Notes under the pieces: generated by a model
The model's input: the letters and a program-made list of their open reading frames with translations, nothing else
Told to the model about the DNA's origin: nothing
The model's database searches: none
Source: Pseudomonadota bacterium
Lineage (GTDB): Bacteria > Pseudomonadota > Gammaproteobacteria > Burkholderiales > Sulfuriferulaceae
Length of the DNA: 34,853 bases
Assembly: GCA_021801025.1 (NCBI GenBank)
Contig: JAJYYK010000017.1
Location: 1-34,853 of the forward strand
Reading direction: 5' to 3'
Program-made: the position numbers and the translations under genes
Shown here: one piece after another, positions 7,604-34,853 of the stretch
Numbering within the stretch: the stretch's first letter is position 1
Layout: each line of letters opens with the position of its first letter

Positions 7604-7690
7604 ACGCGGTTTAGCAGGTTAAATTCTGTAATTTATCTTTTGCCCTGCTGGTTTGAGCTAATTGTTTCCCTTTACTTACAAGGAGTTGAA

Positions 7691-8437: not shown

Positions 8438-8463
8438 GCCCGAAATACCACCCATTAGCCAGA

Positions 8464-8487
8464 AACCGCGCCCTTCAGGGCGGGGTT
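8464..8487. repeat. GC-rich palindrome resembling an IS200/IS605-type end
   Basis: AACCGCGCCCT (8464-8474) and AGGGCGGGGTT (8477-8487) form 11-bp arms with one mismatch and a two-base loop. Palindromes of the type ACCCCGCCCTxxAGGGCGGGGT are typical subterminal hairpins of IS200/IS605 elements and their non-autonomous derivatives. No transposase gene is present in the 147-bp gap between the hydrolase and selD, so at most a relic or a free-standing palindromic repeat is left. Confidence 0.4.
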
Positions 8488-8584
8488 CGGCGCTCCTGCC
8501 AGCCTGAAGACCGGGGTTTTAAACCAGCAAGGAAAAAGGGTAAAACAAAAATATAATTCCCGCGCAAGGGATGTCAAATCTGGA

Positions 8585-9625
8585 CTAAATCACCCGAACG
8601 CCTGCCGAGCCTTCATCCAAATGTCCAATGACACTCGTTTCGGCAAACCCGAGGCTGTGAAACAATTCCAGCACCGATGAAACCGCCGCTGGCGCGCAAC
8701 TGACCAGTAAACCGCCGCTGGTCTGCGGATCGCACAACAGATTTTTTTGCCACAGCGCCATGTTTGCGGGCAATATCACTTCCTGTCCGTAACTCAACCA
8801 GTTACGCTCCGCCGCGCCGGGTGCATAACCTTGCTGCACGAGCTCACGTGCGACGGGCAACACCGGCAACTTTGCAAAATCAATCTCCGCAGCCAAATGA
8901 GACCCCCGGCACATTTCCAGCAAATGTCCGAGCAAGCCAAAACCGGTCACATCCGTCACCGCGTGAACTTGAGACATGTCGGCCAAGGCAATACCGGGCG
9001 TGTTGAGTTGCGTGGTGGTGCGCAACATTTCGACATAGCCTTGTGCGGACAGTTCACCTTTTTTGAGTGCGGAACTCAAAATTCCCACCCCCAACGCCTT
9101 GCCCAGAATCAAGGCATCACCGGTTTGCGCCTGATTGTTGCGTTTGATTTTATCGGGATGCACCAAACCGATGACCACCAAGCCGTAGATAGGCTCTGGC
9201 GCATCAATTGAATGACCACCGGCGATGGGGATACCCGCTGCCCGGCACACCGACTCACCTCCCGCCAAAATATCCCGTATCGTGTCAGCGTCCAGTTTTC
9301 CAACCGGCATGCCGACAATAGCCAGTGCAAACAGAGGTTTTCCTCCCATGGCATACACATCTGAAATCGCATTGGTGGCGGCAATCTGACCGAATTCGTG
9401 GGCATCATCCACAATGGGCATGAAAAAATCGGTGGTAGCGACAATGGCTTGCGTGTCATTGATCTGATACACGGCGGCATCATCGCTGGTTTCCGTGCCA
9501 ACCAGAAGTTGTGGTGAGATAAAACCCGCTGGCAACCCTGCCAGCAGGTCTTGCAATACAGAAGGCGCGAGTTTGCAACCGCAACCGCCACCGTGAGAAA
9601 ATTGTGTTAACCTGACTGGATTCAT
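8585..9625 (-). CDS. selD: Selenide, water dikinase (selenophosphate synthase)
   Basis: A 346-residue cytoplasmic enzyme that makes monoselenophosphate from selenide and ATP, the activated selenium donor. The N-terminal sequence RLTQFSHGGGCGCKLAP holds the catalytic cysteine (C15) and lysine (K18). The catalytic position is Cys, not selenocysteine, so the gene can be read without a Sec system. ATP-binding aspartates occur in TSDDAAVY and TTDFFMPIVDD. GGHSIDAPEPIYGL and DVTGFGLLGHLLEM are further SelD landmarks. The start at ATG 9623-9625 fits the E. coli N-terminus. It is divergent from mnmH, whose start is only 14 bp away, and its selenophosphate presumably serves MnmH. selA and selB are not in the window. 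Confidence 0.96.
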   Translation of the reverse strand: MNPVRLTQFSHGGGCGCKLAPSVLQDLLAGLPAGFISPQLLVGTETSDDAAVYQINDTQAIVATTDFFMPIVDDAHEFGQIAATNAISDVYAMGGKPLFALAIVGMPVGKLDADTIRDILAGGESVCRAAGIPIAGGHSIDAPEPIYGLVVIGLVHPDKIKRNNQAQTGDALILGKALGVGILSSALKKGELSAQGYVEMLRTTTQLNTPGIALADMSQVHAVTDVTGFGLLGHLLEMCRGSHLAAEIDFAKLPVLPVARELVQQGYAPGAAERNWLSYGQEVILPANMALWQKNLLCDPQTSGGLLVSCAPAAVSSVLELFHSLGFAETSVIGHLDEGSAGVRVI

Positions 9626-9639
9626 GAGATCTATTTACC

Positions 9640-10710
9640 GTGACGAACCCCATTACCCTAACATACCTGTCCAGTTTTGACGAGATCATTGATGTGCGTA
9701 CACCGGATGAGTTTGCACTGGACCATGTTCCAGGTGCGCAGAATTTTCCGGTGCTCAGTAACCTCGAACGCGCGCAGATCGGCACACTCTATAAGCAAAC
9801 TTCTGAATTTGAGGCAAAAAAACTGGGGGCAGCACTGATTGCCCGCAACATTTCCGAACACTTGCAGCAGCATTTTACTAACCGCCCGAAAACCTGGCGC
9901 CCACTTGTCTATTGCTGGCGCGGTGGGATGCGCAGTGGTGCCATGCAACACATTTTGCGCCAGATCGGATGGCGCGCAGAAAAAATTCCTGGGGGGTATA
10001 AGGCCTATCGGCATGCGGTGTTTACCGATCTGGAAACCCTGCCCACACACTTTGATTTTAAGGTGATTTGTGGCTTGACGGGCTCTGGAAAAAGTCGCCT
10101 GCTCACCGCACTTGCCAAGCAAGGGGCTCAAGTGCTGGATTTGGAGCAACTCGCTCAACACCGGGGTTCGCTGTTAGGCAACCTGCCTGATTGCCCTCAG
10201 CCCGCACAAAAAATGTTTGACAGCCGGGTGTGGTGGCAATTGTCCCGCTTCAATCCTGCGCAACCGGTGTTCGTTGAAGCCGAGAGCAAGAAAATCGGCA
10301 ATTTGCGTGTGCCGGAGTCCCTCATTTTGTCCATGTGGCAACCCGGTCGCTGCCTGCGCCTGCAAACTGAAGATGCGCTACGTGTTACGCTGCTCAAACA
10401 AGAGTATGCGCACTTTCTGGCCCAACCAGAAAAGCTGTTGCATCAGTTGAATTTCTTGCTCGACCTCTATGGCCATACGCAAATTGATACCTGGGCGGCC
10501 AATATATTAAGTGGCGAGTGGGATGAATTGGTACTGAGCTTGCTGCAACAACATTATGATCGCAGCTATGAGCAGTCCATGCGCCTGCATTATCCTGATT
10601 ACGCGGACAGCCCCAGTGTACCGTTACGTGCCCTTGACGAAGCGACCCTGCGCGAACTTGCCGTGAAAATTTTAGATCGCGGAGACCAACCAGAACCTTG
10701 CACCGATTAA
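9640..10710 (+). CDS. mnmH: tRNA 2-selenouridine synthase
   Basis: A 356-residue enzyme (also called SelU or YbbB) that replaces sulfur by selenium in 2-thiouridine at the wobble position of tRNAs, using selenophosphate. Residues about 10-125 are a rhodanese domain (IIDVRTPDEFALDHVPGAQNF) with the active cysteine C92 in YCWRGGMRSG. Residues about 140-340 are a P-loop domain with GLTGSGKS (145-152). This two-domain order is diagnostic. The start is GTG 9640-9642; the IIDVR motif sits at about the same distance from the N-terminus as in E. coli, so the start is credible although no good ribosome binding site is seen. Divergent from selD, which supplies its substrate. Confidence 0.95.
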   Translation: MTNPITLTYLSSFDEIIDVRTPDEFALDHVPGAQNFPVLSNLERAQIGTLYKQTSEFEAKKLGAALIARNISEHLQQHFTNRPKTWRPLVYCWRGGMRSGAMQHILRQIGWRAEKIPGGYKAYRHAVFTDLETLPTHFDFKVICGLTGSGKSRLLTALAKQGAQVLDLEQLAQHRGSLLGNLPDCPQPAQKMFDSRVWWQLSRFNPAQPVFVEAESKKIGNLRVPESLILSMWQPGRCLRLQTEDALRVTLLKQEYAHFLAQPEKLLHQLNFLLDLYGHTQIDTWAANILSGEWDELVLSLLQQHYDRSYEQSMRLHYPDYADSPSVPLRALDEATLRELAVKILDRGDQPEPCTD

Positions 10711-20114: not shown

Positions 20115-20130
20115 TGGTACATAAATTGCT
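20115..20130 (+). promoter_or_regulatory. Sigma-54 promoter of the nitrate-uptake unit
   Basis: TGGTACATAAATTGCT matches the -24/-12 consensus TGGCACG-N4-TTGCW with the invariant GG (20116-20117) and GC (20128-20129) exactly 12 bp apart. Transcription would begin near 20141, eleven bases before the first leader hairpin. A sigma-54 promoter for nitrate assimilation fits control by nitrogen limitation through NtrC. The second unit of the locus has an independent match with the same geometry. Confidence 0.7.
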
Positions 20131-20140
20131 TGCAATCAAG

Positions 20141-20274
20141 CTGTAAGCTTTCTGCCCAGTGCCGGGTGGATAAAATGAACCGCCGACAAAGACGTCGACC
20201 TGATTGAATCGCGTATTGAATGAGCACAAATTGTGTTAATTCAGTGCACGACAAAATCAGTCGACGTCTTTTTT
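20141..20274 (+). promoter_or_regulatory. NasT/ANTAR-responsive leader RNA 1
   Basis: Two hairpins with six-base loops precede a terminator. Hairpin 1 is CUGCCC[AGUGCC]GGGUGG (20152-20169). Hairpin 2 is CGAC[AAAGAC]GUCG (20184-20197). Both loops have A at position 1 and G at position 4, the hallmark of RNAs bound by ANTAR-domain antiterminators. The loop and 3' strand of hairpin 2 are also the beginning of the terminator 5' arm (from 20188), so the two structures exclude each other. NasT, encoded about 6 kb downstream in the same unit, is the expected ligand; it should favour hairpin 2 and readthrough when NasS has bound nitrate. The whole arrangement recurs at 27978-28120. Confidence 0.85.
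20188..20274 (+). terminator. Regulated intrinsic terminator in leader 1
   Basis: AAAGACGTCGACCTGATT (20188-20205) pairs with AATCAG-TCGACGTCTTT (20255-20271) with a single bulged C, followed by a run of six T ending at 20274. The closing stem is long and encloses 49 bases that themselves contain a hairpin (about 20217-20243, core GCACAAAUUGUG). The terminator lies 45 bp before the porin start codon and would block the whole uptake unit by default. Confidence 0.8.
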
Positions 20275-22965: not shown

Positions 22966-24666
22966 ATGTCCAGCCCAACTCTGCAAATTGATCTTGGCCA
23001 TGCTTCACTGGCCGGGTTGCGTCCACATAATGAAGATTATTGTGCGGGCGCAATCCCGGATGGGGCCGCGCTGGAAAACAAGGGAATAGTGCTGGCTGTG
23101 GCTGATGGCGTAGGCGGCCATGCCAATGGTCGGGAGGCTGCGGAATACTGTGTACGCAGTTTGTTGGCGGATTACTATTCTACGCCCGACACCTGGAGCA
23201 TTCCGCAATCGCTGGACAAACTTGTTACCACACTCAATCACTGGCTGTATTCACACAGTCGTCGCGCCCGTGAAACAGCTGGAATGGCCACCACGCTCTC
23301 CGCCATCGTGTTACGCGGTCGGCGCTATGTCATTGCGCATGTTGGCGACACACGGGTCTATCGTCTGCGTAACGGAAATTTGTCGTTGCTGACCAACGAT
23401 CATGTGTGGGAACACCCCGAGCTTAACAACGTGCTGTCCAGAGCCGTCGGCCTGGATGCCAATTTATCCATTGATTTTATCGATGGCAAGCTGGAAAAAG
23501 ATGATTTGTTTCTGTTGGTCAGCGATGGCGTCTGGAATGTACTGAACACTGCCCGTCTGACCCAATTGCTTGCGTCTTCCGAAAGCGCCGAGGACATGGC
23601 CGCGCGCATCACGCTGGCAGCGCTCGATGCCGGCAGCCATGATAACTGTACCGCGCTGGTAGGCAAGATTCGGCAATTGCCCCTTGAGAGCCTGCGCGAC
23701 AATGTGGCGAACATCAGTGCATTGCCTTTGCCGGCACGCTTAAAGCCTTCGCAACACCTTGACGGGCTTGAAGTGATTGAGATGATTCATGACTCGCGCG
23801 TGACAGCACTCTATCGTGTGCGCGACCCGCACAACGGTCAAAATTACGTGCTGAAGACCTTGCACGCTGATGCAGATGCAGCAGATATTGCAGCCCTTGC
23901 CTATGAAGAATGGCTGGCGCGCCGCGTTGTCAGTGCTGATTTCCCGCAAGTGATCAATTGGCCGCAACGCACTCATCTCTACTATCTGACCACCTGGCAT
24001 GAAGGTGCCACACTGGCACGTCATCTGGAAATGGGACGCAAATTTGCGCCTATTGAGGCTGTTGACCTGGCTACGCACCTGCTCCGGGCAGTGGCCATTC
24101 TGCATCGGCTCGGTATCATTCATCGGGACATTAAACCCGACAATCTGCATCTGGGCGCTGATGGACATTTGCGGGTACTTGATCTGGGTGTTGCCGCTTC
24201 CGATGGACTGGATGCAGAAGAAAGCTTTAATGAGATCAACAATCCCGGCACCCCTTCTTTTATGGCGCCGGAGCTGTTTACCGGCACGCCGGCCAATGAA
24301 TCCAGCGATCTGTATGCGACAGGCGTGACCTTGTATTATCTGCTGACGCGCAAGTATCCCTACGGTGAAATCGAAGCTTTTCAAACGCCGCGTTTTGGCG
24401 ACCCTGTCCCGCCGGCACGCTACCGTCCTGATATTCCGGATTGGCTGGAATCGGTGATGTTGAAGGCCATTGCCCGCGACCCTGTTGAGCGCTTTGAAAC
24501 CGCAGAGGAATTTTTGTTGGCACTCGAACGGGGTGCGCAACGACCGCTGCGCGTCGCGCGCCGTTCGCCGCTACTTAAGCGCGACCCAACTTTTGGGATT
24601 AAACTGGTGGCTGCGTGCTCACTGGCAATCAATATCCTCCTGCTTTTTCTATTATTGGTGAAATAA
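22966..24666 (+). CDS. Bifunctional PP2C phosphatase / Ser-Thr protein kinase, membrane anchored
   Basis: A 566-residue fusion. Residues about 1-240 are a PP2C-type phosphatase with RPHNEDYCAG, VADGVGGHANG, GDTRVYRLRNG, LVSDGVWN and HDNCTALV, which supply the metal-binding aspartates. Residues about 255-530 are a Hanks-type kinase with the ATP lysine K297 (YVLKTL), catalytic loop HRDIKPDN (386-393, D388), metal site DLG (in LRVLDLGVA) and APE (FMAPELF). A single C-terminal membrane segment (SLAINILLLFLLLV) anchors it. The glycine-rich loop is not obvious. Similar kinase genes stand beside nitrate transporter and nasST genes in Pseudomonas (PA1782 region, as I recall), so a role in controlling nitrate uptake is likely, but no target is known to me. 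Confidence 0.92.
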   Translation: MSSPTLQIDLGHASLAGLRPHNEDYCAGAIPDGAALENKGIVLAVADGVGGHANGREAAEYCVRSLLADYYSTPDTWSIPQSLDKLVTTLNHWLYSHSRRARETAGMATTLSAIVLRGRRYVIAHVGDTRVYRLRNGNLSLLTNDHVWEHPELNNVLSRAVGLDANLSIDFIDGKLEKDDLFLLVSDGVWNVLNTARLTQLLASSESAEDMAARITLAALDAGSHDNCTALVGKIRQLPLESLRDNVANISALPLPARLKPSQHLDGLEVIEMIHDSRVTALYRVRDPHNGQNYVLKTLHADADAADIAALAYEEWLARRVVSADFPQVINWPQRTHLYYLTTWHEGATLARHLEMGRKFAPIEAVDLATHLLRAVAILHRLGIIHRDIKPDNLHLGADGHLRVLDLGVAASDGLDAEESFNEINNPGTPSFMAPELFTGTPANESSDLYATGVTLYYLLTRKYPYGEIEAFQTPRFGDPVPPARYRPDIPDWLESVMLKAIARDPVERFETAEEFLLALERGAQRPLRVARRSPLLKRDPTFGIKLVAACSLAINILLLFLLLVK

Positions 24667-24742: not shown

Positions 24743-25951
24743 ATGAATCAAGACCCTGCAATTTTAGAAACTGGCACATCTGATGCACTGGCAGCCCGAT
24801 CTGCGCCATGGACGGGCGGTTCCGATGCGCCCGAAATAAAAGAAGTCAAGGTGGGGTATATGCCATTAACTGACTGCGCCTCAGTCGTGATTGCTTCGGT
24901 GATGAAGTTCGATGAAAAATTTGGCATCAAGATTATTTTGTCAAAAGAAGCGTCATGGTCTGCTGTGCGCGACAAGCTGCTCAATGGCACGCTGCATGCG
25001 GCACATGTACTGTATGGCCTGATTTATGGCGTACACATGGGTATAGGGGGACAGAAAAAGGACATGTCCGTGCTGATGACACTGAGTCACAACGGGCAGG
25101 GCATTACCCTGTCCAATCAGCTCAGGGACAAGGGTGTGACGGAAGGCAATGCGCTTAAAAAACTTTTGGACAGCGAAAAACGGGATTATACCTTTGCGCA
25201 AACGTTTCCCACCGGCACCCATGCGATGTGGTTGTATTACTGGTTGGCAAATTATGGCATCCACCCATTGAATGACGTCAAAATGATTACCGTGCCGCCA
25301 CCACTGATGGTGGCCCAAATGCGCATGGCGCATATAGACGGCTTTTGTGTCGGCGAGCCCTGGAATAATCGTGCCATTTACGACAAAATCGGCTTTACTG
25401 CCGCAACCTCCCAGGATATTTGGCCGGATCATCCCGAAAAAGTGTTGGGTTGCACGGCCGAATTTTCGCAACAATACCCCAACACCTCCCGTGCGTTGAT
25501 CATGGCGCTACTCGAAGCATCGCGTTATATCGACGTGATGTCGAACCGGCATCAGGTATCGGAAATCATTGCTGCCAGGGCCTACCTTGACTGCCCGGTA
25601 GAGGTGATCGATCAGCGCATGGCGGGAAAATACGAAGACGGTTTGGGACGCCAATGGAATGATCCCGATCACATGAAATTTTACAACGAAGGCCTGGTGA
25701 ATTTCCCCTATTTGTCTGACGGGATGTGGTTTTTGACCCAGCACAAACGTTGGGGCTTATTGAAGGAGGATCCAGATTATCTGGCAGTTGCCCGGCAAAT
25801 TAACCAGATTGAACTATATCAACAAGCGGCTTCCCGGATCAAAGTACCTGTGCCCAAGGCGCTGATGCGCACATCCAGGTTGATGGATGGCAAAGTGTGG
25901 GATGGAAGCAATCCAAATGAATATGCCGCCAGTTTTCATATCAGCGCATGA
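24743..25951 (+). CDS. nasS: Nitrate sensor NasS
   Basis: A 402-residue protein of the NrtA/NasS nitrate-binding family (KVGYMPLTDCASVVIASVMKFDEKFGIKI, TFPTGTHAMWLYYWLANYGIHP, VPPPLMVAQMRMAHIDGFCVGEPWNNRA). Unlike the transport-linked NrtA proteins it has no signal peptide; the N-terminus is a polar stretch, so it is cytoplasmic. NasS holds NasT inactive without nitrate or nitrite and lets go when the ligand binds. It is encoded directly before nasT and downstream of the leader that NasT should act on, so the regulator is itself part of the regulon. The ATG at 24743 has only a weak GAAGG upstream. Confidence 0.93.
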   Translation: MNQDPAILETGTSDALAARSAPWTGGSDAPEIKEVKVGYMPLTDCASVVIASVMKFDEKFGIKIILSKEASWSAVRDKLLNGTLHAAHVLYGLIYGVHMGIGGQKKDMSVLMTLSHNGQGITLSNQLRDKGVTEGNALKKLLDSEKRDYTFAQTFPTGTHAMWLYYWLANYGIHPLNDVKMITVPPPLMVAQMRMAHIDGFCVGEPWNNRAIYDKIGFTAATSQDIWPDHPEKVLGCTAEFSQQYPNTSRALIMALLEASRYIDVMSNRHQVSEIIAARAYLDCPVEVIDQRMAGKYEDGLGRQWNDPDHMKFYNEGLVNFPYLSDGMWFLTQHKRWGLLKEDPDYLAVARQINQIELYQQAASRIKVPVPKALMRTSRLMDGKVWDGSNPNEYAASFHISA

Positions 25952-26025
25952 TGAAAAATATCATCCCAAAAAATCCAGTCGGGATTGTTTTACTTGCATC
26001 AAGACAAGCGAAAGTTGGGTGCTAA
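25951..26025 (+). other. 24-codon open frame bridging nasS and nasT
   Basis: The nasS stop overlaps an ATG (TGATG, 25949-25953) that opens a 24-codon frame beginning MKNIIPKNPVG and ending with TAA at 26023-26025, one base before the TTG proposed as the nasT start. This could be a coupling peptide that carries ribosomes from nasS to nasT. The alternative is that it is accidental. No family is recognised. Confidence 0.25.
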
Positions 26026-26026
26026 A

Positions 26027-26605
26027 TTGAAGCGCATACTGATCATCGACGATCTGCGTGATCGTGCCGCATGGTTGAAAGCCAGTCTTGAACTGGCCGA
26101 ATACGATGTCATTGGCGTGTTGAGCTGGGAACAAGTCGATGAACACTCCATACAGGCCGCTTCTGCCGATGTCATTATCGTGGATGCCAACGCACCAGGG
26201 CGGGACACGCTGGAACAAATCAGCCTGATGTCCAAAACCCTGGAAAAACCGGTGGTCGTACTGGGCGCACAAAAGGACAGTCAAAGCATTATGGCTGCGA
26301 TGCGCGCCGGGGTCAGTGCCTACGTGTCACACGAAGTACAAAGCGAAGACTTGAATGGAATTATTCAGGTGGCCGCTGCGCGTTTTGCCGAACATAAGCG
26401 TTTGCGTGATGAATTAAAGGAAGTAAAGAGTCAGCTGGCAGACCGGAAATTGGTGGATCAAGCCAAAGGCATTTTGATGCTGAGCCATGGTCTTGGCGAA
26501 GCGGAAGCTTATAAGCGGATGCGCAACATGGCGATGAGCAAGGGGAAGCGAATGGCTGAAATTGCTGAAGCGATTATTCTGGCGCATGAGTTGAATTCGA
26601 TGTGA
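26027..26605 (+). CDS. nasT: ANTAR-domain antiterminator NasT
   Basis: A 192-residue RNA-binding response-regulator-like protein. The N-terminal receiver domain has D8, D9 and D53 (IIVDANAPGRDTLEQI), so the phosphorylation site is kept, although NasT is thought to be controlled mainly by NasS binding. A coiled linker (RLRDELKEVKSQLADRK) leads to the C-terminal ANTAR domain (AKGILMLSHGLGEAEAYKRMRNMAMSKGKRMAEIAEAII), which binds paired hexaloop hairpins. Two matching RNAs are present at 20152-20197 and 27987-28039. I place the start at TTG 26027, where the protein aligns with known NasT N-termini (MKRILIIDD); a TTG at 25985 would add 14 residues. No clear ribosome binding site is seen. Confidence 0.92.
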   Translation: MKRILIIDDLRDRAAWLKASLELAEYDVIGVLSWEQVDEHSIQAASADVIIVDANAPGRDTLEQISLMSKTLEKPVVVLGAQKDSQSIMAAMRAGVSAYVSHEVQSEDLNGIIQVAAARFAEHKRLRDELKEVKSQLADRKLVDQAKGILMLSHGLGEAEAYKRMRNMAMSKGKRMAEIAEAIILAHELNSM

Positions 26606-26915
26606 TTGGTTCAGCCCGGTTCAACATCATTTCGACTATTTGCATTTCGGGATTGGAAATGGAAATCCATGATTCGAATTTCCTTCTTTTCGACATATTG
26701 CTCCGGGTCGGAATAAAGCGTACGTTATTGACCCCAAGCGGATGTTCGGGGTGTGTGCCCTGACAGTCCCTTGTTCGGCCTTATGGAAAGCTTTACATAA
26801 GGCCGAGCAGGAGACCATTATGTCCATCGCTGTGAATGACTGTTTCTGGCACCTTTGCTCAATACCAAATATTTAGATTAACGCCGAAAAAAAGCGGGCA
26901 ATAACTCAGTTACAT
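26606..26915. other. Intergenic stretch between nasT and the toxin gene
   Basis: No coding region is supported. The stretch holds ACCCC/GGGGT arms around 26728-26750 and the long palindrome listed separately. Between 26880 and 26915 the sequence is AT-rich with an A-run on the plus strand (T-run for the minus-strand toxin gene), but no proper terminator stem. The position suggests the junction of a small inserted segment carrying the toxin-antitoxin pair. Confidence 0.4.
26775..26806. repeat. 32-bp near-perfect palindrome downstream of nasT
   Basis: TCGGCCTTATG (26775-26785) and CATAAGGCCGA (26796-26806) are perfect inverted arms. The centre (26786-26795) continues the symmetry as AAAGCTTT with one mismatched pair flanking it, so the arms are effectively 16 bp with one mismatch. 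There is no T-run after it. It may act as a weak terminator stem for the nasST unit, or be a recombination or mobile-element remnant. Confidence 0.6.
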
Positions 26916-27200
26916 TTACCAAACTTTAGGCAATTTTCGACGAGTATGAAAAACACGCAAAACGTGGAGTTCATCGCCCACAACGCGGTATGGAACAACA
27001 AATGGATAACGGTCAACAACCAGTTCACGTGTACCCGGAACTCTGCCAGGACGCCCGGAGGATGGAAACTCGCTGAGTGCGTCAACCTTATTTTTGACGT
27101 ACACGAACATGTCTGCTGCCGCTTTCGGGTTTTCCCGTGCGATGTAATCAGCCTCAGCATCAAGATTCCTGATTGCTTTTTGCAGCCATCTAACCAGCAT
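26916..27200 (-). CDS. RelE/ParE-family toxin
   Basis: A 94-residue protein starting MLVRWLQKAIRNLDAEADYI. The pattern RWLQKAIRNLDAEADYIARENPKAAADMFVYV...LSEFPSSGRPGRVPGTRELVVDRYPFVVPYRVVGDELHVLRVFHTRRKLP is typical of ParE-type toxins: two N-terminal helices, then a GRPGR...TRELVV...PYRV beta-sheet. ParE members poison DNA gyrase; some RelE-like members cut mRNA on ribosomes, and the motif set favours ParE. The start at ATG 27198-27200 overlaps the antitoxin end by 11 bp. The upstream-extended frame is not toxin-like. Confidence 0.88.
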   Translation of the reverse strand: MLVRWLQKAIRNLDAEADYIARENPKAAADMFVYVKNKVDALSEFPSSGRPGRVPGTRELVVDRYPFVVPYRVVGDELHVLRVFHTRRKLPKVW

Positions 27201-27429
27201 TGTGCTCCCACTTTGCGCTGATGGCATACACTTCCTCATCACTGGCAAAGTCGCCTGCGTCGGCCTCGGAGATTGCCTGGGTAATTTCAGCAATCTGCCA
27301 AGATTCACGTTCGATATAGTCGCGAATAGCTTGCCCAGCCAGAAATGATTTTGTACGGCCTGTGGCAGCAGCCAGAATATCAAGCTGATTGCTCAACTCG
27401 TCCGGCAAGCGCATAGACATCATGCTCAT
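27190..27429 (-). CDS. Ribbon-helix-helix antitoxin (ParD/CopG-like)
   Basis: A 79-residue protein starting at ATG 27427-27429 after a perfect AGGAGG. Residues about 5-45 (MRLPDELSNQLDILAAATGRTKSFLAGQAIRDYIE) form a ribbon-helix-helix DNA-binding domain: a short strand, then two helices with the turn ATGRTKS. The acidic C-terminal part (QAISEADAGDFASDEEVYAISAKWEH) is the toxin-neutralising tail. Antitoxin-first order and the 11-bp overlap with the toxin are normal for parDE-type operons. The protein should repress its own promoter at the inverted repeat just upstream. Confidence 0.88.
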   Translation of the reverse strand: MSMMSMRLPDELSNQLDILAAATGRTKSFLAGQAIRDYIERESWQIAEITQAISEADAGDFASDEEVYAISAKWEHNAG

Positions 27430-27449
27430 AATGCACCTCCTGTTTTGTA

Positions 27450-27469
27450 TTACAACACTGTCATTGTAA
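27450..27469 (-). promoter_or_regulatory. Probable operator of the toxin-antitoxin operon
   Basis: TTACAA (27450-27455) and TTGTAA (27464-27469) form a perfect 6-bp inverted repeat with an 8-bp centre, 20 bp upstream of the antitoxin start codon. It overlaps a possible promoter on the minus strand (TTGATT, 16 bp, TAATAC). Autorepression by the ribbon-helix-helix antitoxin at such a palindrome is the usual arrangement. Confidence 0.5.
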
Positions 27470-27792
27470 ATCAAAATCGCGAGTATGGTAGATTTGCACA
27501 TGAATCAAAAAACCTGGTGGCTGGAATATTTTTCAGCTTGATACTGCGCTCGGCCATTCGAAAGAGCAATATTCCGCTTATGGCACTCAGTAATACGCAC
27601 CGAACGACGGCTTTCTTGCTGAATATATTACATCGCGACAGACCGCTATTGTGTCAAACAGACTACCATCTTTGTTTCGGGTCAAGTTTACAGCAATCGC
27701 TTTAACACCACACTGCTGAACCACTTTTATTCATTTTCAACCTTGAAATGCAAATAGCCATCATTTCTAACAAAAACCCGAACAGTTTAGTT
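27470..27792. other. Intergenic stretch upstream of the nirB control region
   Basis: I see no gene, tRNA or recognisable element here. The open frames present are short, lack ribosome binding sites and resemble no family I know. Together with 26606-26915 it flanks the toxin-antitoxin pair, and may contain the second junction of an insertion, but no direct repeat was found by eye. Confidence 0.4.
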
Positions 27793-27822
27793 TTGGTGCC
27801 ATCTATGTATTTCGACGCACCA
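27793..27822. promoter_or_regulatory. Putative enhancer half-sites upstream of the nitrate-reduction unit
   Basis: TTGGTGC (27793-27799) and GCACCA (27817-27822) repeat the words found at 19954-19982, at 160 and 136 bp from the GG of the sigma-54 promoter. The distance is normal for a bacterial enhancer-binding protein. The words are NtrC-like half-sites in an unusual outward arrangement. Confidence 0.4.
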
Positions 27823-27951
27823 TATCGATGCATAAGTGCAACGCACGCATGGCAAGACAGCGCGCATCACATGGCCACCGGTTTGTGCAGCCTGGAAAAT
27901 CCGATTGATTTACATAAGAAATCGCGCGAAACAGCACATCAATTATAATAT

Positions 27952-27967
27952 TGGCACGTAAAATGCT
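27952..27967 (+). promoter_or_regulatory. Sigma-54 promoter of the nitrate-reduction unit
   Basis: TGGCACGTAAAATGCT has a complete -24 element TGGCACG and a -12 element ATGCT, with GG (27953-27954) and GC (27965-27966) 12 bp apart. Only one base differs from the full consensus TGGCACG-N4-TTGCT. The start point would be near 27978, about nine bases before the first leader hairpin, as in the uptake unit. Confidence 0.78.
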
Positions 27968-27977
27968 TTTCTCCTGA

Positions 27978-28120
27978 GTGTATGCGTAAACTTCCTACCC
28001 AATGGCGGGCGGAAGTTTAACTCACCGACAAAGACGTCGACCCAGTGGAGGTATGCGTTGAAAGAACACAAACCGTGTTTTTTCAATTCACACCCCAAAC
28101 CGGGCGGCGTCTTTTTTTTT
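27978..28120 (+). promoter_or_regulatory. NasT/ANTAR-responsive leader RNA 2
   Basis: Hairpin 1 spans 27987-28019: a 9-bp outer stem (UAAACUUCC/GGAAGUUUA) and an inner CCC/GGG stem closing the hexaloop AAUGGC. Hairpin 2 is CGAC[AAAGAC]GUCG (28026-28039), identical to leader 1. Both loops have A1 and G4. The AAAGACGUCGACCC stretch from 28030 is shared between hairpin 2 and the terminator. This is the second NasT target of the locus and places nirB-nirD-nasA-moaA-moaC under nitrate-dependent antitermination. Confidence 0.88.
28030..28120 (+). terminator. Regulated intrinsic terminator in leader 2
   Basis: AAAGACGTCGACCC (28030-28043) pairs with GGGCGGCGTCTTT (28102-28114) with one bulged A and one G-U pair, followed by nine T (28112-28120). 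The enclosed part contains a 12-bp hairpin (28058-28086) with loop AAACC. The T-run ends only 11 bases before the nirB start, so the terminator and the nirB ribosome binding site almost touch. Confidence 0.85.
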
Positions 28121-28131
28121 CGAGGATGATA

Positions 28132-30591
28132 ATGATGGCTGCAAACAAAACAAGACTGGTTGTAATCGGCAATGGCATGGCGGGCATCCGCACCGTAGAA
28201 GAACTGATCAAGATGTCGCCTGACGAATACGACATCACGGTATTCGGCGCGGAACCTCAGCCCAATTACAACCGCATTCTGCTCTCGCCCGTGTTGTCAG
28301 GCGAAATGGCGTTTCAGGAAACGGTGCTCAATGACTGGGGCTGGTACCAGGAAAACAACATCACCTTGCACGCCGGAAAACCGGTGACCAAAATCCACCG
28401 CAAACAATGCGTGGTGAGTACCGATGATGGCTTGAGCGTGCCGTATGACCGTTTGTTAATCGCCACCGGCTCCAACCCTTTCATGCCCCCAATACCCGGC
28501 ATAGATTTGCCCGGCGTGGTGGCTTATCGCAACATTCAGGATGTTGAAGCGATGCTGGCTGCGGCCCAAACAGGTCAACGCGCGGTCGTGATTGGCGGGG
28601 GCCTGCTCGGTTTGGAGGCCGCCAACGGCTTGTCCCTGCGTGGCATGGATGTTTCCGTGGTTCACATCAATGATTGGTTAATGGAGCGTCAACTGGACAA
28701 AGTGGGCGGCGATTTATTGACCGCAGAACTTCAAAAACGCGGCTTGAATTTTTACCTGGCGCACCAAACGGAAGCCATCCTGGGAAAGCAGCACGTCACT
28801 GGATTACAATTCAAGAATGGGCTGGAAATTGACGCCGATTTGGTGGTCATGGCGGTGGGCATTCGCCCCAACATCGCGCTGGCCAAATCGGCCGGCATCC
28901 ATTGTGAACGTGGCATTGTGGTCAATGACACTATGCAGACCTTCGATCCAAAAATTTATTCCGTCGGTGAGTGCGTGCAACATCGCGGACAAACTTACGG
29001 TCTGGTGGCTCCATTGTTTGAGCAAGCCAAAGTGGCCGCCAATCATTTAGCGGAATTTGGGCGTATGCGTTATCAAGGCTCGCTGGTCTCAACCAAGCTC
29101 AAAGTGACCGGCATTGATTTGTTCTCGGCGGGGGATTTTCACGCCGCTGAAGGGGATGAAGAACTGTTGCTGCAAGATGCGTCGCGTGGCGTGTATAAAA
29201 AACTGATCCTGCGCAACAACAAGTTGCGTGGCGCCGTGATGTATGGCGACACCATGGACGGCCCATGGTACTTTCAAATGCTGCGCGATGGCACCGATGT
29301 TTCCGAATTCCGTGAACACATCTTGTTCGGTCAGGCGCACTTGGGTGACGCTGGACGCGCCGGCGCTTCCAGCGTGATGAATATGGCCGATAATGCCGAA
29401 ATATGCGGGTGCAATGGGATTAACAAAGGCATGATCGTTAAAGCCATTATCGAGAAAAAGCTGTTCACCATTGAAGAAGTACGCGCCCACACCAAAGCTT
29501 CCAGCTCTTGCGGTTCGTGTACCGGCCTGGTGGAAGCTTTGCTGGCCAACACCCTGGGCGGCGATTATTCTGCCCCACCCAGCAAAAAACCCATGTGTAC
29601 CTGTACTGAATTGTCGCATGACGATGTACGCGACGCCATCACCCAACACGCACTTGATTCCTTGCCACAGTTGATGCAAATGCTCAACTGGAAAACACCG
29701 GATGGTTGCGCAAGTTGCCGCCCGGCGTTGAACTTTTACCTGCTGGCCGCCGCACCAGACACCTACAAGGATGACAGCCATTCTCGCTTTATCAATGAGC
29801 GGGTTCACGCCAACATTCAAAAAGATGGCACTTACTCGGTGATACCACGCATTTGGGGCGGCGTGACTTCACCCGCCGAATTGCGCGCCATTGCCAACAT
29901 CGCGGACAAATATGAAGTTCCTACCGTCAAATTCACTGGCGGACAGCGTCTGGATTTGCTGGGCGTCACCAAAGAAAATTTGCCTAAAATGTGGGGAGAT
30001 CTGGTTGCAGCAGGCTTCGTTTCCGGTCATGCTTATGGCAAGGCGTTGCGTACGGTTAAAACCTGCGTCGGGTCGGAATGGTGCCGTTTCGGAACGCAAG
30101 ATTCAACCGGCTTGGGCATCCGGATGGAGAAAGAAACCTGGGGCTCCTGGACACCGCACAAATTTAAAATTGCCGTGTCCGGTTGCCCGCGCAATTGTGC
30201 GGAGGCCACCATCAAAGACTTTGGCGTGGTGTGTGTCGATTCCGGCTATGAGCTTCATGTCGGCGGCAATGGCGGAATCAAGGTACGCGTAACCGATTTT
30301 CTGTGTAAAGTCAGCACTGAAGCTGAAGTGCTGGAATATTGTGGAGCGTTCATGCAACTGTACCGCGAAGAAGCCCATTACCTGGAGCGCACCGCACCAT
30401 GGATAGAACGCACCGGCCTGACCCACATCAAACAGCGTGTGGTGGATGATGCGAGCATGCGTGCGGAACTGTATACCCGCTTTCTGCAATCCCAAACTTC
30501 GGCACAGATTGATCCATGGAAAGCGCGTGCCGAAGGCAAGGATGCGCTGGAATATGTACCGTTGACAGCGATTGCCGAAATGGCCAATTAA
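28132..30591 (+). CDS. nirB: Assimilatory nitrite reductase [NAD(P)H], large subunit
   Basis: An 819-residue cytoplasmic enzyme that reduces nitrite to ammonium. Domains in order: FAD site (VVIGNGMAGIRTVEEL), NAD site (VVIGGGLLGLEAANGL), two BFD-like Fe-S segments (CGCNGINKGMIVKAI...CGSCTGLV and CTCTELSHDDVRDAI...CASCRPAL), the sulfite/nitrite reductase ferredoxin-like half, and the siroheme/[4Fe-4S] site with cysteines in TCVGSEWC and SGCPRNC. The start is one of three in-frame ATG codons at 28126, 28132 and 28135. GAGG at 28122-28125 is best placed for 28132 or 28135. An extension to 28045 lies inside the leader and is rejected. First gene of the nitrate-reduction unit. Confidence 0.96.
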   Translation: MMAANKTRLVVIGNGMAGIRTVEELIKMSPDEYDITVFGAEPQPNYNRILLSPVLSGEMAFQETVLNDWGWYQENNITLHAGKPVTKIHRKQCVVSTDDGLSVPYDRLLIATGSNPFMPPIPGIDLPGVVAYRNIQDVEAMLAAAQTGQRAVVIGGGLLGLEAANGLSLRGMDVSVVHINDWLMERQLDKVGGDLLTAELQKRGLNFYLAHQTEAILGKQHVTGLQFKNGLEIDADLVVMAVGIRPNIALAKSAGIHCERGIVVNDTMQTFDPKIYSVGECVQHRGQTYGLVAPLFEQAKVAANHLAEFGRMRYQGSLVSTKLKVTGIDLFSAGDFHAAEGDEELLLQDASRGVYKKLILRNNKLRGAVMYGDTMDGPWYFQMLRDGTDVSEFREHILFGQAHLGDAGRAGASSVMNMADNAEICGCNGINKGMIVKAIIEKKLFTIEEVRAHTKASSSCGSCTGLVEALLANTLGGDYSAPPSKKPMCTCTELSHDDVRDAITQHALDSLPQLMQMLNWKTPDGCASCRPALNFYLLAAAPDTYKDDSHSRFINERVHANIQKDGTYSVIPRIWGGVTSPAELRAIANIADKYEVPTVKFTGGQRLDLLGVTKENLPKMWGDLVAAGFVSGHAYGKALRTVKTCVGSEWCRFGTQDSTGLGIRMEKETWGSWTPHKFKIAVSGCPRNCAEATIKDFGVVCVDSGYELHVGGNGGIKVRVTDFLCKVSTEAEVLEYCGAFMQLYREEAHYLERTAPWIERTGLTHIKQRVVDDASMRAELYTRFLQSQTSAQIDPWKARAEGKDALEYVPLTAIAEMAN

Positions 30592-30663
30592 ACCACGCAC
30601 CCGGATGGTACGCATCCGTACCAGGGCAGGATTACCCCGGATAAATATTGGATAAGAAATAAG

Positions 30664-30990
30664 GTGAACACATTGAACTGGATACAAATAGGGAAACTGG
30701 AAGACATTCCGCAGCAAGGCGCCAGAACCGTGACCACGCCCCACGGTGAAATCGCGGTGTTTCGCACCATAGATGATCAGGTGTTTGCGCTGGACAACCG
30801 CTGTCCGCACAAAAATGGTCCGCTGGCACAAGGCATCATACACGGCCACCGTGTCACCTGCCCTTTGCACAGCTGGGTCATCAGTCTGGAGAATGGCGAG
30901 GCAGTCGCGCCGGATGCGGGTTGCGCGCACCGCTACAACGTCAAATTGGACAATGGCGAACTGTTACTGCAACTGCCAGATAAAAAATGA
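30664..30990 (+). CDS. nirD: Nitrite reductase [NAD(P)H], small subunit with Rieske ligands
   Basis: A 108-residue Rieske-fold partner of NirB. Residues C47-x-H49 (RCPHKNGPL) and C66-x2-H69 (CPLHSW) are the [2Fe-2S] ligands of a genuine Rieske centre. The enterobacterial NirD, as I recall it, has lost them, so this small subunit probably carries a cluster. The start given is GTG 30664; a TTG at 30673 with AAGGTG six bases upstream is an alternative that would remove three residues. It lies 72 bp after nirB and overlaps nasA by 4 bp. Confidence 0.93.
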   Translation: MNTLNWIQIGKLEDIPQQGARTVTTPHGEIAVFRTIDDQVFALDNRCPHKNGPLAQGIIHGHRVTCPLHSWVISLENGEAVAPDAGCAHRYNVKLDNGELLLQLPDKK

Positions 30991-33641
30991 GCGCAACCAC
31001 TCCCTCCACACCGATACACACAATCTGCCCCTATTGTGGGGTGGGCTGCGGTGTCATCATGACGCGTATCACCAAAGGATACCAGTTAAAAGCCGATAAT
31101 CAGCACCCGGCAAATTTTGGCAAACTGTGCTCCAAAGGTGCAGCGTTGGCTGAGACACTGGATGATGGTGACCGTCTGTTGTACCCGATCACCAAAGGGA
31201 AACGCGCCACTTGGGATGCGGCCCTGTCGGAGGTTACTCACACATTTCAGCGCATCATTGCAGAACACGGCCCGGATGCTGTGGCCTTTTATGTTTCAGG
31301 GCAGCTCCTGACCGAAGATTATTATGTGGCCAACAAGCTGATGAAAGGCTTTATCGGCAGCGGCAATATCGATACCAATTCACGGCTGTGCATGTCCACT
31401 GCGGTGGCTGCGCACAAACGCGCTTTTGGTGCCGATGCGGTACCGGTCAGCTATGAAGACATGGAAGCAGCTGATTTGGTGGTACTGATCGGCTCTAACT
31501 ACGCTTGGGCACACCCCGTTCTCTATCAGCGCCTGATGGCCGCCAGGAAAATGCGGCCGGGCATGCGCGTGGTGGTCATCGACCCGCGCCGCACCGCCAC
31601 CTGCGACATTGCCGATTTGCATCTGGCCATATCACCGGGGTCAGATGGCTTTCTGTTCAATGGCCTATTAAATTATTTGCGTCGGGAAGACGCACTGAAC
31701 CTCTCTTATATCGAAGCTCACGTCGAGGGGTTTTCTGCCGCATTACACACCGCAAGACTGGCGGGCAGCATTCCTGAAGTGGCACTCAATTGCGGTGTGC
31801 CGGAAGCGCAGATCAGCGAATTTTTTCACCTTTTTTTACGCACCGAACGCACGGTCAGTATTTTTTCCCAGGGCATCAATCAATCTTCCAGCGGTGTCGA
31901 CAAGGCCAATGCCCTGATTAACCTGCATCTGGCAACCGGGCGCATCGGCAAGCCGGGCATGGGACCATTTTCAGTCACCGGACAACCCAATGCCATGGGT
32001 GGTCGCGAAGTGGGAGGGCTGGCCAATCAACTGGCTGCGCACATGGATTTTACTGATCCGGGACACATCGACACCGTATCAAGATTCTGGAACGCGCCAC
32101 ACATTGCACAGAAGCCCGGGCTTAAGGCGGTTGAAATGTTCCAGGCCATTGCCGACGGAAAAATCAGGGCTGTGTGGATTATGGGCACCAATCCGGCAGT
32201 CAGCCTGCCCGATGCCGACCGGGTACGACAGGCCTTGCAAGCCTGCGAATGCGTGGTGGTGTCCGATTGCGTGCGCCACACAGACACCACCGCCTGTGCC
32301 GATATTTTGCTGCCTGCGATGGGTTGGGGCGAAAAAGACGGCACGGTGACCAATTCAGAACGCCGTATTTCACGCCAACGCGCTTTTTTACCTCCGGCAG
32401 GCGAAGCTCAGCCAGACTGGTGGATCATCACCCAGGTAGCGCAACGCATGGGCTGGGCTGCGGAGTTTTCTTACACGCGTGCGGCGCAGATTTTCCGCGA
32501 ACACGCCAGCCTGTCCGGTTTTGAGAATCTCACCCAACGCGCCTTTGACATCAGCGCCTTCGCTGACTTGAGCGACAACGATTACGAAACGTTACAGCCG
32601 GTACAATGGCCAGTGAATGCAGCACATCCGCAAGGTAGCCAACGCTTGTTTACGGACGGAAAATTTTTTACCCCCAGCGGTAAAGCTCAAATGTGGCCCA
32701 TTACGCCACGTATGCCCGCACAAACCACCGATGCCGAGTTTCCTTTTGTGCTGAATACCGGGCGCATACGCGATCAGTGGCACACCATGACACGCACTGG
32801 AAAAGTGCCACGTTTAAACACGCACTATCCGGAACCGTTTATCGAAATTCATGTAACGGATGCCTTGGTTCACCACTTGGCCAACGGCAGTTTGGCCGAA
32901 TTACGCAGTCGCCATGGCAAAATGCTGGCGCGGGTGCAAATTAATGAAGATCAACGACCCGGCTCTTTATTCGTCCCCATGCACTGGAGCGATGTTTTTG
33001 CACAAGCCGCACGGGTGGATGCGTTAGTGGCACCGATTACTGACCCCATTTCCGGTCAGCCGGAATCCAAACACACCCCGGTGTGCATCACCCCCTTACA
33101 CCCAACGTGGCAAGGCTTCGTGCTCAGCCGGACCGCCTTACACTTTGACGACACCCGCTATTGCGCTGCAGCATGCTGCGGTACATACTGGCGTTACGAA
33201 TTGGCTGGCGATCACCGGCCTTCGGTATGGAGCGATTGGGCACATGACATTTTAGGTCTTTCCGCCGACTGGTCAGAATACCGCGACGATGCATCAGGCC
33301 GTTATCGTGCAGCCTGTTTGGTTGATGGACAATTGCAAGCAGTATTCTTTGTCGCTGCCGACCACCATCTACCCGCGCGTGAATGGCTGGCCAGCCTGTT
33401 TAAATCCGGGCAACTCACCGCCAGTGAGCGTACGCACTTGTTGTCTGCCCGACCAGCCCGAGGCAGTGCGGATCCCGGACGAATAATTTGCGCCTGTCAT
33501 GGCGTAGGTGAAAAAACCATCTTGAATGCAATACACCAAAACAAACTCACCAGCATCGAAGCCATCGGACTCCGCACCCAGGCCGGCACGGGTTGTGGCT
33601 CATGTGTGGCAGAGTTGCGTCGTATTCTGGAGCGTGCATGA
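30987..33641 (+). CDS. nasA: Assimilatory nitrate reductase catalytic subunit
   Basis: An 884-residue cytoplasmic molybdoenzyme reducing nitrate to nitrite. The N-terminal [4Fe-4S] ligands are C14, C17, C21 and C48 (ICPYCGVGCGV...KLCSKG). The molybdopterin domains follow; the region NSRLCMSTAVAAHKRAFGAD has a cysteine, not selenocysteine. IGSNYAWAHPVLYQRL, ATGRIGKPGMGPFSVTGQPNAMGGREVG and MGTNPAVSLPD are family hallmarks. A C-terminal BFD-like [2Fe-2S] module (CACHGVGEKTILNAI...GCGSCVAELRRIL) receives electrons, as in Klebsiella NasA. ATGA overlap with nirD and with moaA shows strict coupling. The gene is called nasC or narB in other bacteria. Confidence 0.96.
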   Translation: MSATTPSTPIHTICPYCGVGCGVIMTRITKGYQLKADNQHPANFGKLCSKGAALAETLDDGDRLLYPITKGKRATWDAALSEVTHTFQRIIAEHGPDAVAFYVSGQLLTEDYYVANKLMKGFIGSGNIDTNSRLCMSTAVAAHKRAFGADAVPVSYEDMEAADLVVLIGSNYAWAHPVLYQRLMAARKMRPGMRVVVIDPRRTATCDIADLHLAISPGSDGFLFNGLLNYLRREDALNLSYIEAHVEGFSAALHTARLAGSIPEVALNCGVPEAQISEFFHLFLRTERTVSIFSQGINQSSSGVDKANALINLHLATGRIGKPGMGPFSVTGQPNAMGGREVGGLANQLAAHMDFTDPGHIDTVSRFWNAPHIAQKPGLKAVEMFQAIADGKIRAVWIMGTNPAVSLPDADRVRQALQACECVVVSDCVRHTDTTACADILLPAMGWGEKDGTVTNSERRISRQRAFLPPAGEAQPDWWIITQVAQRMGWAAEFSYTRAAQIFREHASLSGFENLTQRAFDISAFADLSDNDYETLQPVQWPVNAAHPQGSQRLFTDGKFFTPSGKAQMWPITPRMPAQTTDAEFPFVLNTGRIRDQWHTMTRTGKVPRLNTHYPEPFIEIHVTDALVHHLANGSLAELRSRHGKMLARVQINEDQRPGSLFVPMHWSDVFAQAARVDALVAPITDPISGQPESKHTPVCITPLHPTWQGFVLSRTALHFDDTRYCAAACCGTYWRYELAGDHRPSVWSDWAHDILGLSADWSEYRDDASGRYRAACLVDGQLQAVFFVAADHHLPAREWLASLFKSGQLTASERTHLLSARPARGSADPGRIICACHGVGEKTILNAIHQNKLTSIEAIGLRTQAGTGCGSCVAELRRILERA

Positions 33642-34687
33642 ACATCATCCCCATCCACTTCCGCCCACAGCAGGCGACGCCATCCATCGCGGATGGGTTT
33701 GGACGAAAAATCAGTTATTTGCGCATTTCTGTGGTGGACCGTTGTAATCTGCGCTGCACATATTGCCGCCCCAACGGCGATGATTTCCACGCGGTTGAAC
33801 GAGAGCAATTGCTCACTTTTGAAGAAATTGAGCGCGTCGTGCGCATGATGACCCAGCTTGGGGTAGAAAAAATTCGGTTGACGGGTGGTGAACCCCTGGT
33901 GCGTAAAGGCTTGGTGGATGCTATTGCGCGCATCGCCGCTGTCCCCGGCATCCGGGATTTGGCTTTAAGCACCAATGCGGTATTACTGGATAAATTTGCT
34001 CGCCCGCTGCGGGAAGCTGGGCTGCACCGTGTCAATATCAGCCTGGACAGTTTAAATCCACAGACTTTCGAGCAATTAACCGGCGGGCGTTTAAATGAAG
34101 TACTGGCCGGCATTCACGCCGCACAGGATGCGGGTTTCACGCCGATTCGCATCAACGCTGTGCTCATGCGCGGCATTAACGACCACGAGGCGGCATCGCT
34201 CATCGACTGGAGCATTCGTGAACAGCTTGAACTGCGTTTTATTGAACTCATGCCGATGTGTGAAGGCATGGACTGGCAACGTCATTATTACCCTTTTTCC
34301 GAACTGCTGGCGCAAAGTGCCATCATCGAACGCCTGGACCTCGACACTTCGCTCCGGCAAGGTTCTTCAGCCGCCCGGTACGTGTCAGTGCGGGGGATGC
34401 ATGAACATCCTCTGCGCCACACCCCAAGCATGGTGGGATTCATTGAACCCATGTCCAACCATTTTTGCGAAAGCTGCAATCGTTTGCGTTTGATGTCCGA
34501 CGGGAAATTGCGTCCATGTTTGTCTGCCGACCACGAGATTGATTTGCGCTCTGCCTTGCGTGACGGATGCAGCGACGAAACCCTGCTGGACCTGATTCGC
34601 CTTGCCAGCACGAAAAAACAGGAATACAGTACTTATACGTTTGAAAGCATAGGCAGACAGCGTTCGATGATTGCCATAGGAGGTTAA
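33638..34687 (+). CDS. moaA: GTP 3',8-cyclase (molybdenum cofactor synthesis)
   Basis: A 349-residue radical SAM enzyme that starts molybdopterin synthesis from GTP. The N-terminal cluster motif is CNLRCTYC ([19 protein letters not shown]), followed by [13 protein letters not shown] and STNAVLL. The second C-terminal [4Fe-4S] site is in [20 protein letters not shown]. The protein ends in Gly-Gly, the conserved tail needed for catalysis. ATG 33638 overlaps the nasA stop (ATGA); the frame upstream of it is not MoaA. Its place directly after nasA provides the cofactor of the nitrate reductase in the same transcript. Confidence 0.96.
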
Positions 34688-34688
34688 T

Positions 34689-34853
34689 ATGCCCACAGCT
34701 TCTGATTCCTCACTCACTCATTTCAGCGAAACGGGCCGTGCGCGCATGGTGGATGTTTCGGAAAAATCCGGTACGCATCGCACAGCGATTGCCAGCGGTG
34801 TGCTGCGCATGCGACCCACCACTCTGGCACGCATTCACGATGGCACCATTGCA
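34689..34853 (+). CDS. moaC: Cyclic pyranopterin monophosphate synthase, N-terminal part
   Basis: The first 55 codons of moaC are present; the gene runs off the window end. The sequence [33 protein letters not shown] is the conserved MoaC N-terminus (LTHxxxxGxAxMVDVxxKxxTxRxAxAxGxVxM). A perfect AGGAGG (34678-34683) precedes the ATG, one base after the moaA stop. MoaC works with MoaA to form cyclic pyranopterin monophosphate. Confidence 0.93.

Follow-up and report, generated by a model that had tools for sequence, protein, structure and literature searches.

We consider it highly likely that positions 27978-28120 of the window (the whole stretch of DNA that was analysed, 34,853 nucleotides) form the control leader of the nirB-nirD-nasA-moaA-moaC genes, and that this leader, hereafter leader 2, works with two keys in series, the first being nitrogen shortage and the second nitrate. 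By analogy with studied relatives, it is very probably a NasT/ANTAR antitermination leader, and it is a further example of a known switch type and not a new type. The leader has the anatomy of such a switch, is conserved with covariation among relatives, and is unique in the genome together with its counterpart, leader 1. Two adjacent hairpins with A1/G4 hexaloops, a terminator overlapping the second, covariation, and an ANTAR protein in the genome mark it as a probable ANTAR dual-hexaloop target. In addition, nasT adjoins a signal-less, NrtA-like nasS and the leader precedes nitrate/nitrite assimilation genes, as in a NasS-NasT regulon, while a GG-N10-GC element in a genome with both RpoN and NtrC constitutes a predicted sigma-54/NtrC promoter. 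The features are as follows (L013 is a locus from close kin).

20116-20274, + strand: leader 1, with a sigma-54 element (20116-20129), P1 (20151-20170), P2 (20184-20197) and a terminator whose T-run reaches about 20274
24743-25951, + strand: nasS-like nitrate-binding protein without a signal peptide, the proposed sensor (NMT1_2, 327 bits)
25985-26605, + strand: nasT, receiver plus ANTAR, the proposed RNA-binding regulator (ANTAR 69.7 bits; Response_reg)
27793-27831, + strand: NtrC-like enhancer site (TTGGTGC ... GCACC-N5-GATGC, NtrC-type half-sites)
27951-27968, + strand: predicted sigma-54 -24/-12 promoter TTGGCACGTAAAATGCTT (GG-N10-GC, element 27953-27966), from sequence and conservation in kin
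27987-28019, + strand: hairpin 1 (P1), hexaloop AAUGGC at 28001-28006, from folding and covariation across relatives
28026-28039, + strand: hairpin 2 (P2), CGAC[AAAGAC]GUCG with the hexaloop at 28030-28035, the candidate ANTAR/antiterminator hairpin, identical in leader 1
28030-28120, + strand: intrinsic terminator, 5' arm 28030-28043 overlapping P2, 3' arm 28102-28114, nine T at 28112-28120
28122-28125, + strand: Shine-Dalgarno-like GAGG for nirB, from sequence, kept in L013
28132-30591, + strand: nirB, nitrite reductase large subunit (start 28132 or 28135; TIGR02374, 952 bits)
30664-30990, + strand: nirD, nitrite reductase small subunit, Rieske (TIGR02378, above cut-off)
30987-33641, + strand: nasA, assimilatory nitrate reductase with a C-terminal [2Fe-2S] domain (Molybdopterin, Molydop_binding and Fer2_BFD domains)
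33638-34687, + strand: moaA, GTP 3',8-cyclase (TIGR02666, 358 bits)
34689-34853, + strand: moaC, truncated where contig C1, which is exactly the window, ends (its 55 remaining residues are matched by moaC models)

The proposed mechanism runs as follows, with NasT binding, nitrate release and read-through modelled on studied relatives. When nitrogen is short, NtrC bound near 27824 would, as the sequence suggests, activate sigma-54 polymerase at 27951-27968. The RNA would start at about 27978, and hairpin 1 would fold first and hairpin 2 next as the RNA emerges. Without nitrate, the nitrate-binding partner (24743-25951) would hold NasT, the 3' arm would open P2, the terminator would form and the RNA would end at about 28120. 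With nitrate, free NasT would grip both A1/G4 hexaloops through its ANTAR domain and P2 would stay closed, which would let polymerase read into nirB, whose ribosome site follows directly. The window would thereby hold a complete two-key switch, nitrogen shortage and then nitrate, whose whole detectable regulon is two operons.

Anatomy and folding of leader 2

Read directly, the two hexaloops of 27978-28120 are AAUGGC and AAAGAC, both with A1 and G4, and the available part of PMC3369931 describes two such A1/G4 hexaloop hairpins together with terminator overlap as the mark of ANTAR targets. P1 reads UAAACUUCC-ua-CCC[AAUGGC]GGG-c-GGAAGUUUA, and both reading and folding bear out the 9-bp outer stem around the CCC[AAUGGC]GGG core that had been predicted, the inner stem having 3 bp. 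The terminator pairs its 5' arm AAAGACGUCGACCC (28030-28043) with GGGCGGCGUCUUU (28102-28114) and ends, just as had been claimed, in nine T, with 11 bases (28121-28131) between this run and the nirB ATG at 28132; an ATG at 28126 is out of frame in L013 through a 1-nt deletion there. P2 (28026-28039) and the terminator (28030-28120) have bases in common and are mutually exclusive.

The stretch 27978-28128 has a folding energy of -60.9 kcal/mol, its shuffles averaging -37.9 (z -6.0), and leader 1 folds 7.7 standard deviations below its shuffles (z -7.7). The terminator state of leader 2 reaches -60.0 kcal/mol against -49.1 with P2 forced, which puts the cost of forcing P2 at 10.9 kcal/mol. In prefix folds taken at 6-nt steps, P2 was present from 66 to 126 nt and absent at 132, once the 3' arm had emerged.

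When the terminator is folded, the 5' strand of P2 becomes free and forms a short, weak helix with 28120-28122 and 28125-28126, taking in two GAGG bases. Since this weak helix touches the ribosome site, some effect on translation is possible, and it might be argued that NasT binds the leader and acts mainly on the nirB translation start or on RNA stability; the T-run ends only two bases before GAGG, and the available part of PMC3369931 proposes translational ANTAR targets. We regard this reading as very improbable: the GAGG helix is short and weak, whereas the long stem with nine T is a standard intrinsic terminator, and a terminator with a T-run is kept in all 27 leaders examined, at nirB, nrtA and porin genes alike. 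The 5' terminator arm that pairs best begins, in each of the same 27 leaders, at the A1 of the P2 loop. Termination opposed by NasT, as set out above, is the reading that we follow.

Promoter, operon and regulon

The original prediction had overlooked the sigma-54 element, the NtrC-like site and the confinement of identity between the two leaders to the hairpin-2 segment. All 18 bases of the leader 2 promoter are the same in L013, and a count from the -12 element predicts a transcription start at about 27978; leader 1 carries the element TTGGTACATAAATTGCTT. Among 26 leader places that had been found without reference to the promoter, 20 have a sigma-54 element upstream, compared with 2.7% of random 120-nt stretches from the same loci (GG[CT]A[CT]-N6-TGC within 120 nt upstream in both cases). 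The other six comprise two Devosia places and four nirB leaders of nrtA-type relatives (L014 14067-14137, L016 14112-14182, L017 14086-14149 and L026 9941-10004); because these four have no such element within the 120 nt, they may operate within a longer RNA that starts at the nrtA promoter. The genome encodes both NtrC (690 bits) and RpoN (471 bits). The upstream regions of four leaders, 1 and 2 of the window and both of L013, have TTGGTGC and GCACCAT-N2-CG without variation, and these motifs are consistent with putative NtrC sites. The site at 27793-27831 agrees at 9 of 10 positions with the NtrC consensus, which is a loose match to a frequent pattern, matches of at least 8 of 10 numbering 34 on the + strand of the window against a shuffled mean of 16. 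Predicted sigma-54 promoters at NasT-type genes appear in the available part of PMC12316311.

The position of the leader also bears on whether its terminator is a fixed attenuator, deaf to NasT, that damps read-through from upstream and carries its hairpins incidentally. The terminator is strong by itself, and nasT lies upstream on the same strand, so that some read-through is possible. We nevertheless give this explanation a slim chance: it has no need of P1 and the A1/G4 hexaloops, yet these are kept in relatives beside nasT; the site has a sigma-54 element on one side and its own operon on the other, with 11 bases left to the start codon; and the nearest upstream genes, a toxin-antitoxin pair, are on the opposite strand. 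A switch responsive to NasT remains our preferred reading.

The contents of the gap that separates nasT from leader 2 suggest a hot spot for insertions. In the window this gap holds a ParE/RHH toxin-antitoxin pair on the minus strand (26906-27501, the RHH match falling just under the Pfam cut-off); in L013 the same gap (7193-10500) contains an MqsA-like antitoxin, a RES/Xre pair, HxlR and a short-chain dehydrogenase, and in genome G005 the leader follows nasT by about 330 bp, part of this interval being masked.

Downstream of the leader, nirD shares ATGA with nasA, as does nasA with moaA, and the start of moaC is 1 nt beyond the moaA stop, which makes a single operon very likely. The best NCBIfam matches of nasA fall below their cut-offs. 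A scan of 26500-34853 for internal sigma-70 promoters and terminators found 4 and 11 against 6.9 and 12.1 in shuffles, the terminator scan also missing the terminator of leader 2, whose loop is too long for it. It had been proposed that the molybdenum cofactor genes moaA and moaC are drawn into nitrate control; given the gene overlaps, this stands for the present copy and fails for the complete pathway. Another moaA, which shares 80% identity with that of the window, lies on a different contig (C13; loci L258 and L262) at the end of a narGHJI operon, so that molybdenum cofactor synthesis is not wholly under the NasT switch. The order on that contig is narG-narH-narJ-narI-isomerase-porin and then the second moaA; the end of narG was confirmed by Pfam, narH, narJ, narI and the isomerase were named from sequence by eye, and the porin scored 23.4 bits against OprD, just below the cut-off of 25. 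The assimilatory cluster and the respiratory narGHJI operon each have their own moaA and OprD-like porin. moaA is also on the nas contig in the genomes G004 and G005.

The original prediction took leader 2 for a NasT target and the two units for a local NasT regulon, and both proposals gained support, the second becoming sharper. nasT lies 1.4 kb upstream of leader 2 and is the sole ANTAR match in the genome, the leader has the anatomy expected, and similar leaders occur in 16 of 19 close NasT loci. Two covariance models, one with and one without the promoter, scored the leaders at 54.3 and 50.4 bits and at 51.1 and 46.6 bits, leaders 1 and 2 being among the training rows of both; the next matches in the genome reached 16.2 and 13.1 bits, respectively. 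Neither model found a third leader in the genome, nor was one present among the matches listed in a pattern search of the genome with up to 3 mismatches. The genome (2.38 Mb) contains the 14-mer of P2 at exactly two places, both of them in the window. A script that looked for two A1/G4 hexaloops and a terminator starting in the second, with limits set after the leaders had been seen, returned exactly two places on both strands of the window, namely leaders 1 and 2. Neither the 60 order-1 shuffles of one strand nor the 51 control loci, which amount to 1.74 million strand-bases, yielded any such place. An earlier run of the script gave two chance-looking places in the Devosia loci L033 and L035; its background is therefore low, not zero. 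At gathering score, a tRNA was the sole Rfam match in the window; microRNA and sRNA matches below gathering scores look like chance and were rejected.

Given that neither model recovered any leader besides 1 and 2, and that NasT is the one ANTAR protein of the genome, the two units (porin-narK-kinase/phosphatase-nasS-nasT and nirB-nirD-nasA-moaA-moaC) would make up the whole NasT regulon as far as these models see. Leader 1 stands before the porin-narK-kinase-nasS-nasT genes, whose short gaps suggest a single operon from porin to nasT, and this would place the regulator within its own target unit; NasT thus probably feeds its own synthesis.

Between narK and nasS, at 22966-24666, lies a PP2C phosphatase fused to a Ser/Thr kinase, and a PP2C phosphatase-Ser/Thr kinase also stands beside narK in L013, L022, L027, L030 and L031.

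Leaders in relatives and the Rfam narK RNA

The 19 closest NasT loci (77-94% identity) belong to metagenome assemblies, the majority of which carry the label Gallionellaceae, Gallionella, Sideroxydans or Nitrosomonadales; from these labels we judge the lineage of the window to be Gallionellaceae-like. The 16 loci with leaders were counted with model R2, which most of those leaders had trained; no leader was found with R2 in L023, L025 and L028, of which L023 and L025 are short contigs. The first matched gene after 24 leaders, the two of the window included, was nrtA/nasS in 11 cases, nirB in 8, oprD in 2 and narK in 1. Two leaders had no matched gene within 1.2 kb, that of L015, at a contig end, and the L031 leader at 9561, which precedes a frame with an outer-membrane-protein-like start. 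nirB leaders recur in L013, L014, L016, L017, L026, L027, L031 and G005. Model R1, run on 30 other loci, gave a best match of 21.9 bits (E 0.003) in a Devosia NasT locus, and 10 of its 12 matches up to E 1 were in Devosia.

Aligned with nasT-linked leaders of relatives, the hairpins are kept and show compensatory changes. Selection by the sigma-54 element and P2 gave 47 rows, 45 of which have a hairpin 1 with an A1/G4 loop and a stem of at least 3, a count in which some are expected by chance since the best of many positions was taken. Removal of nine rows (two without hairpin 1 and seven with long or odd spacing) left 38, in which 93.3% of cells are paired and 81 two-sided changes occur against 23.7 in shuffles; none of 500 shuffles was as high, and every slid version fell well short. 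Counted as pairs with a two-sided change, the result for these 38 rows was unexceptional, 76 of 500 shuffles being as high. Of the 38 rows, 14 came from an Rfam search with a model that itself contains P1; among 27 rows without any Rfam-search sequence, 96.3% of cells are paired, with 42 two-sided changes against 16.9. In both sets, many rows had been chosen by scripts requiring hairpin 1. The inner three pairs of P2 were fixed by the search pattern and are uninformative for covariation, and the outer pair, which was free, is GC in 21 of the 38 rows, CG in 9, AU in 4 and unpaired in 4.

The two leaders of the window had been called nearly identical. This description fits the hairpin-2 segment CCGACAAAGACGUCGACC, which is the same letter for letter (the base before it is A in leader 2 and G in leader 1), and does not fit the whole leader RNA, in which 94 of 144 columns are equal (65%). 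Such divergence outside one short segment could suggest that NasT uses leader 1 only, that leader 2 is a decaying copy and that nirB is under NtrC alone, an explanation to which we give next to no chance. Leader 2 has every element and outscores leader 1 in both covariance models. It is also better conserved in L013 than the DNA upstream of it (96.5% identity from P1 to P2 and 94.8% in the remaining terminator against 80% upstream), and nirB leaders recur in relatives; in L013 the outer P1 stem lacks one pair. We therefore continue to treat leader 2 as a probable NasT target.

The same element seems to be partly described in Rfam as narK RNA (RF03032), the source paper of which is reportedly that of Weinberg in 2017. 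The RF03032 model consists of GGCAC...UUGCU, one hairpin and then CGACAAAGACGUCG; both window leaders align with the model over its full length, whereas their scores of 25.2 and 23.0 bits lie below the gathering score of 43.2, so that at this threshold neither belongs to the family. Judged from the sequence, the first part of the model can be read as the sigma-54 element, that is, promoter DNA upstream of the RNA, and CGACAAAGACGUCG corresponds to hairpin 2, which Rfam marks as unpaired. Under strict filters, 34 of 300 genomes of the order have a match to RF03032 at E <=0.001 and 3 have one above the gathering score. A nasT relative occurs within about 1.5 kb (3-kb locus) in 22 of the 30 best loci, and 29 of the 30 hold some gene of the nitrate set of the window, one of them only the porin. 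At gathering score, Rfam gave nothing in 20 short loci around nasT relatives. The narK RNA family thus looks like a partial description of the NasT target element, promoter included, and if this reading holds, an Rfam family is tied to a known regulator, NasT. A literature search for narK RNA, narK motif and RF03032, to which the source paper of the family was external, found no mention.

The nitrate sensor and known NasT systems

The NasS-like protein is the sole NMT1_2 match in the genome, and its closest solved structure is NrtA (2g29, E 4e-76). It has no signal peptide, and stop codons just upstream leave no space for one. Its identity is about 78% with the NrtA that relatives export by Tat (including L014 10848-12143) and 27-31% with the homologues next to nasT in Devosia, which are signal-less as well. 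A tree was built from 71 proteins, without 11 of 82 rows (near-copies and parts) and with one homologue missing from each of L036, L037 and L040; in it the NasS-like protein falls among the NrtA proteins of Gallionellaceae and related taxa (a 10-row set with support 99/95, the bootstrap not having settled and long branches meeting in this tree). By its identity and nesting, it looks like an NrtA whose Tat signal has been lost. The presence or absence of Tat, which was called by pattern and is doubtful for L022, L035 and L210, needs 6 changes on the tree, at least 5 of them forced by supported branches. Genome G041, which is rated 100% complete and contains the same contig as L016, has NasT and leaders, and its single NMT1_2 protein is an exported NrtA; an NMT1_2 profile search found no NasS there. 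A normal NasS should have been seen, because the same Pfam model catches the Devosia NasS-like protein (225 bits).

These observations bear on a broader proposal, to which we assign even chances: that narK RNA is the betaproteobacterial NasT dual-hexaloop target with the sigma-54 promoter modelled in, and that the sensor has been remade from NrtA, with Tat lost several times, alongside the replacement of the ABC transporter by NarK. Among the literature matches listed for NasS/NrtA conversion and nitrate control in Gallionella, nothing concerned such a conversion. The NrtA/NasS reading makes two questions testable, namely how a transporter binding protein becomes a sensor and what senses nitrate in genomes that yield no NasS match.

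NasS-NasT control of nirBD-PA1779-cobA in Pseudomonas aeruginosa is reportedly the subject of a 2012 study by Romeo. In Paracoccus, according to the available part of PMC3795266, nitrate splits NasS-NasT and NasT binds the nas leader RNA; the available part of PMC5424462 also treats this system. In Bradyrhizobium, the available part of PMC6759348 reports that narK and bjgb have predicted NasT hairpins and that narK-bjgb-flp is raised in a nasT mutant, from which it follows that a hairpin alone is no proof of positive control; most of the NasT-affected genes described there lack such a hairpin (PMC6759348).

The nas system of Paracoccus denitrificans and the nirBD-PA1779-cobA system of P. aeruginosa share with the window the receiver-ANTAR NasT, a signal-less NasS, leader hairpins and downstream reductase genes. 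Unlike these systems, the window has two leader-bearing operons, one ending in moaA-moaC, and a sensor nearer to exported NrtA (about 78%) than to the signal-less homologue of Devosia (27-31%). The eut leaders of Enterococcus (EutV) and the nasF leader of Klebsiella (NasR) have the same two six-base A1/G4 loops, with the second hairpin overlapping the terminator, but the window differs from both in its regulator, NasT, in its sigma-54-like promoter and in the extra 9-bp outer stem of P1 over a bulge.
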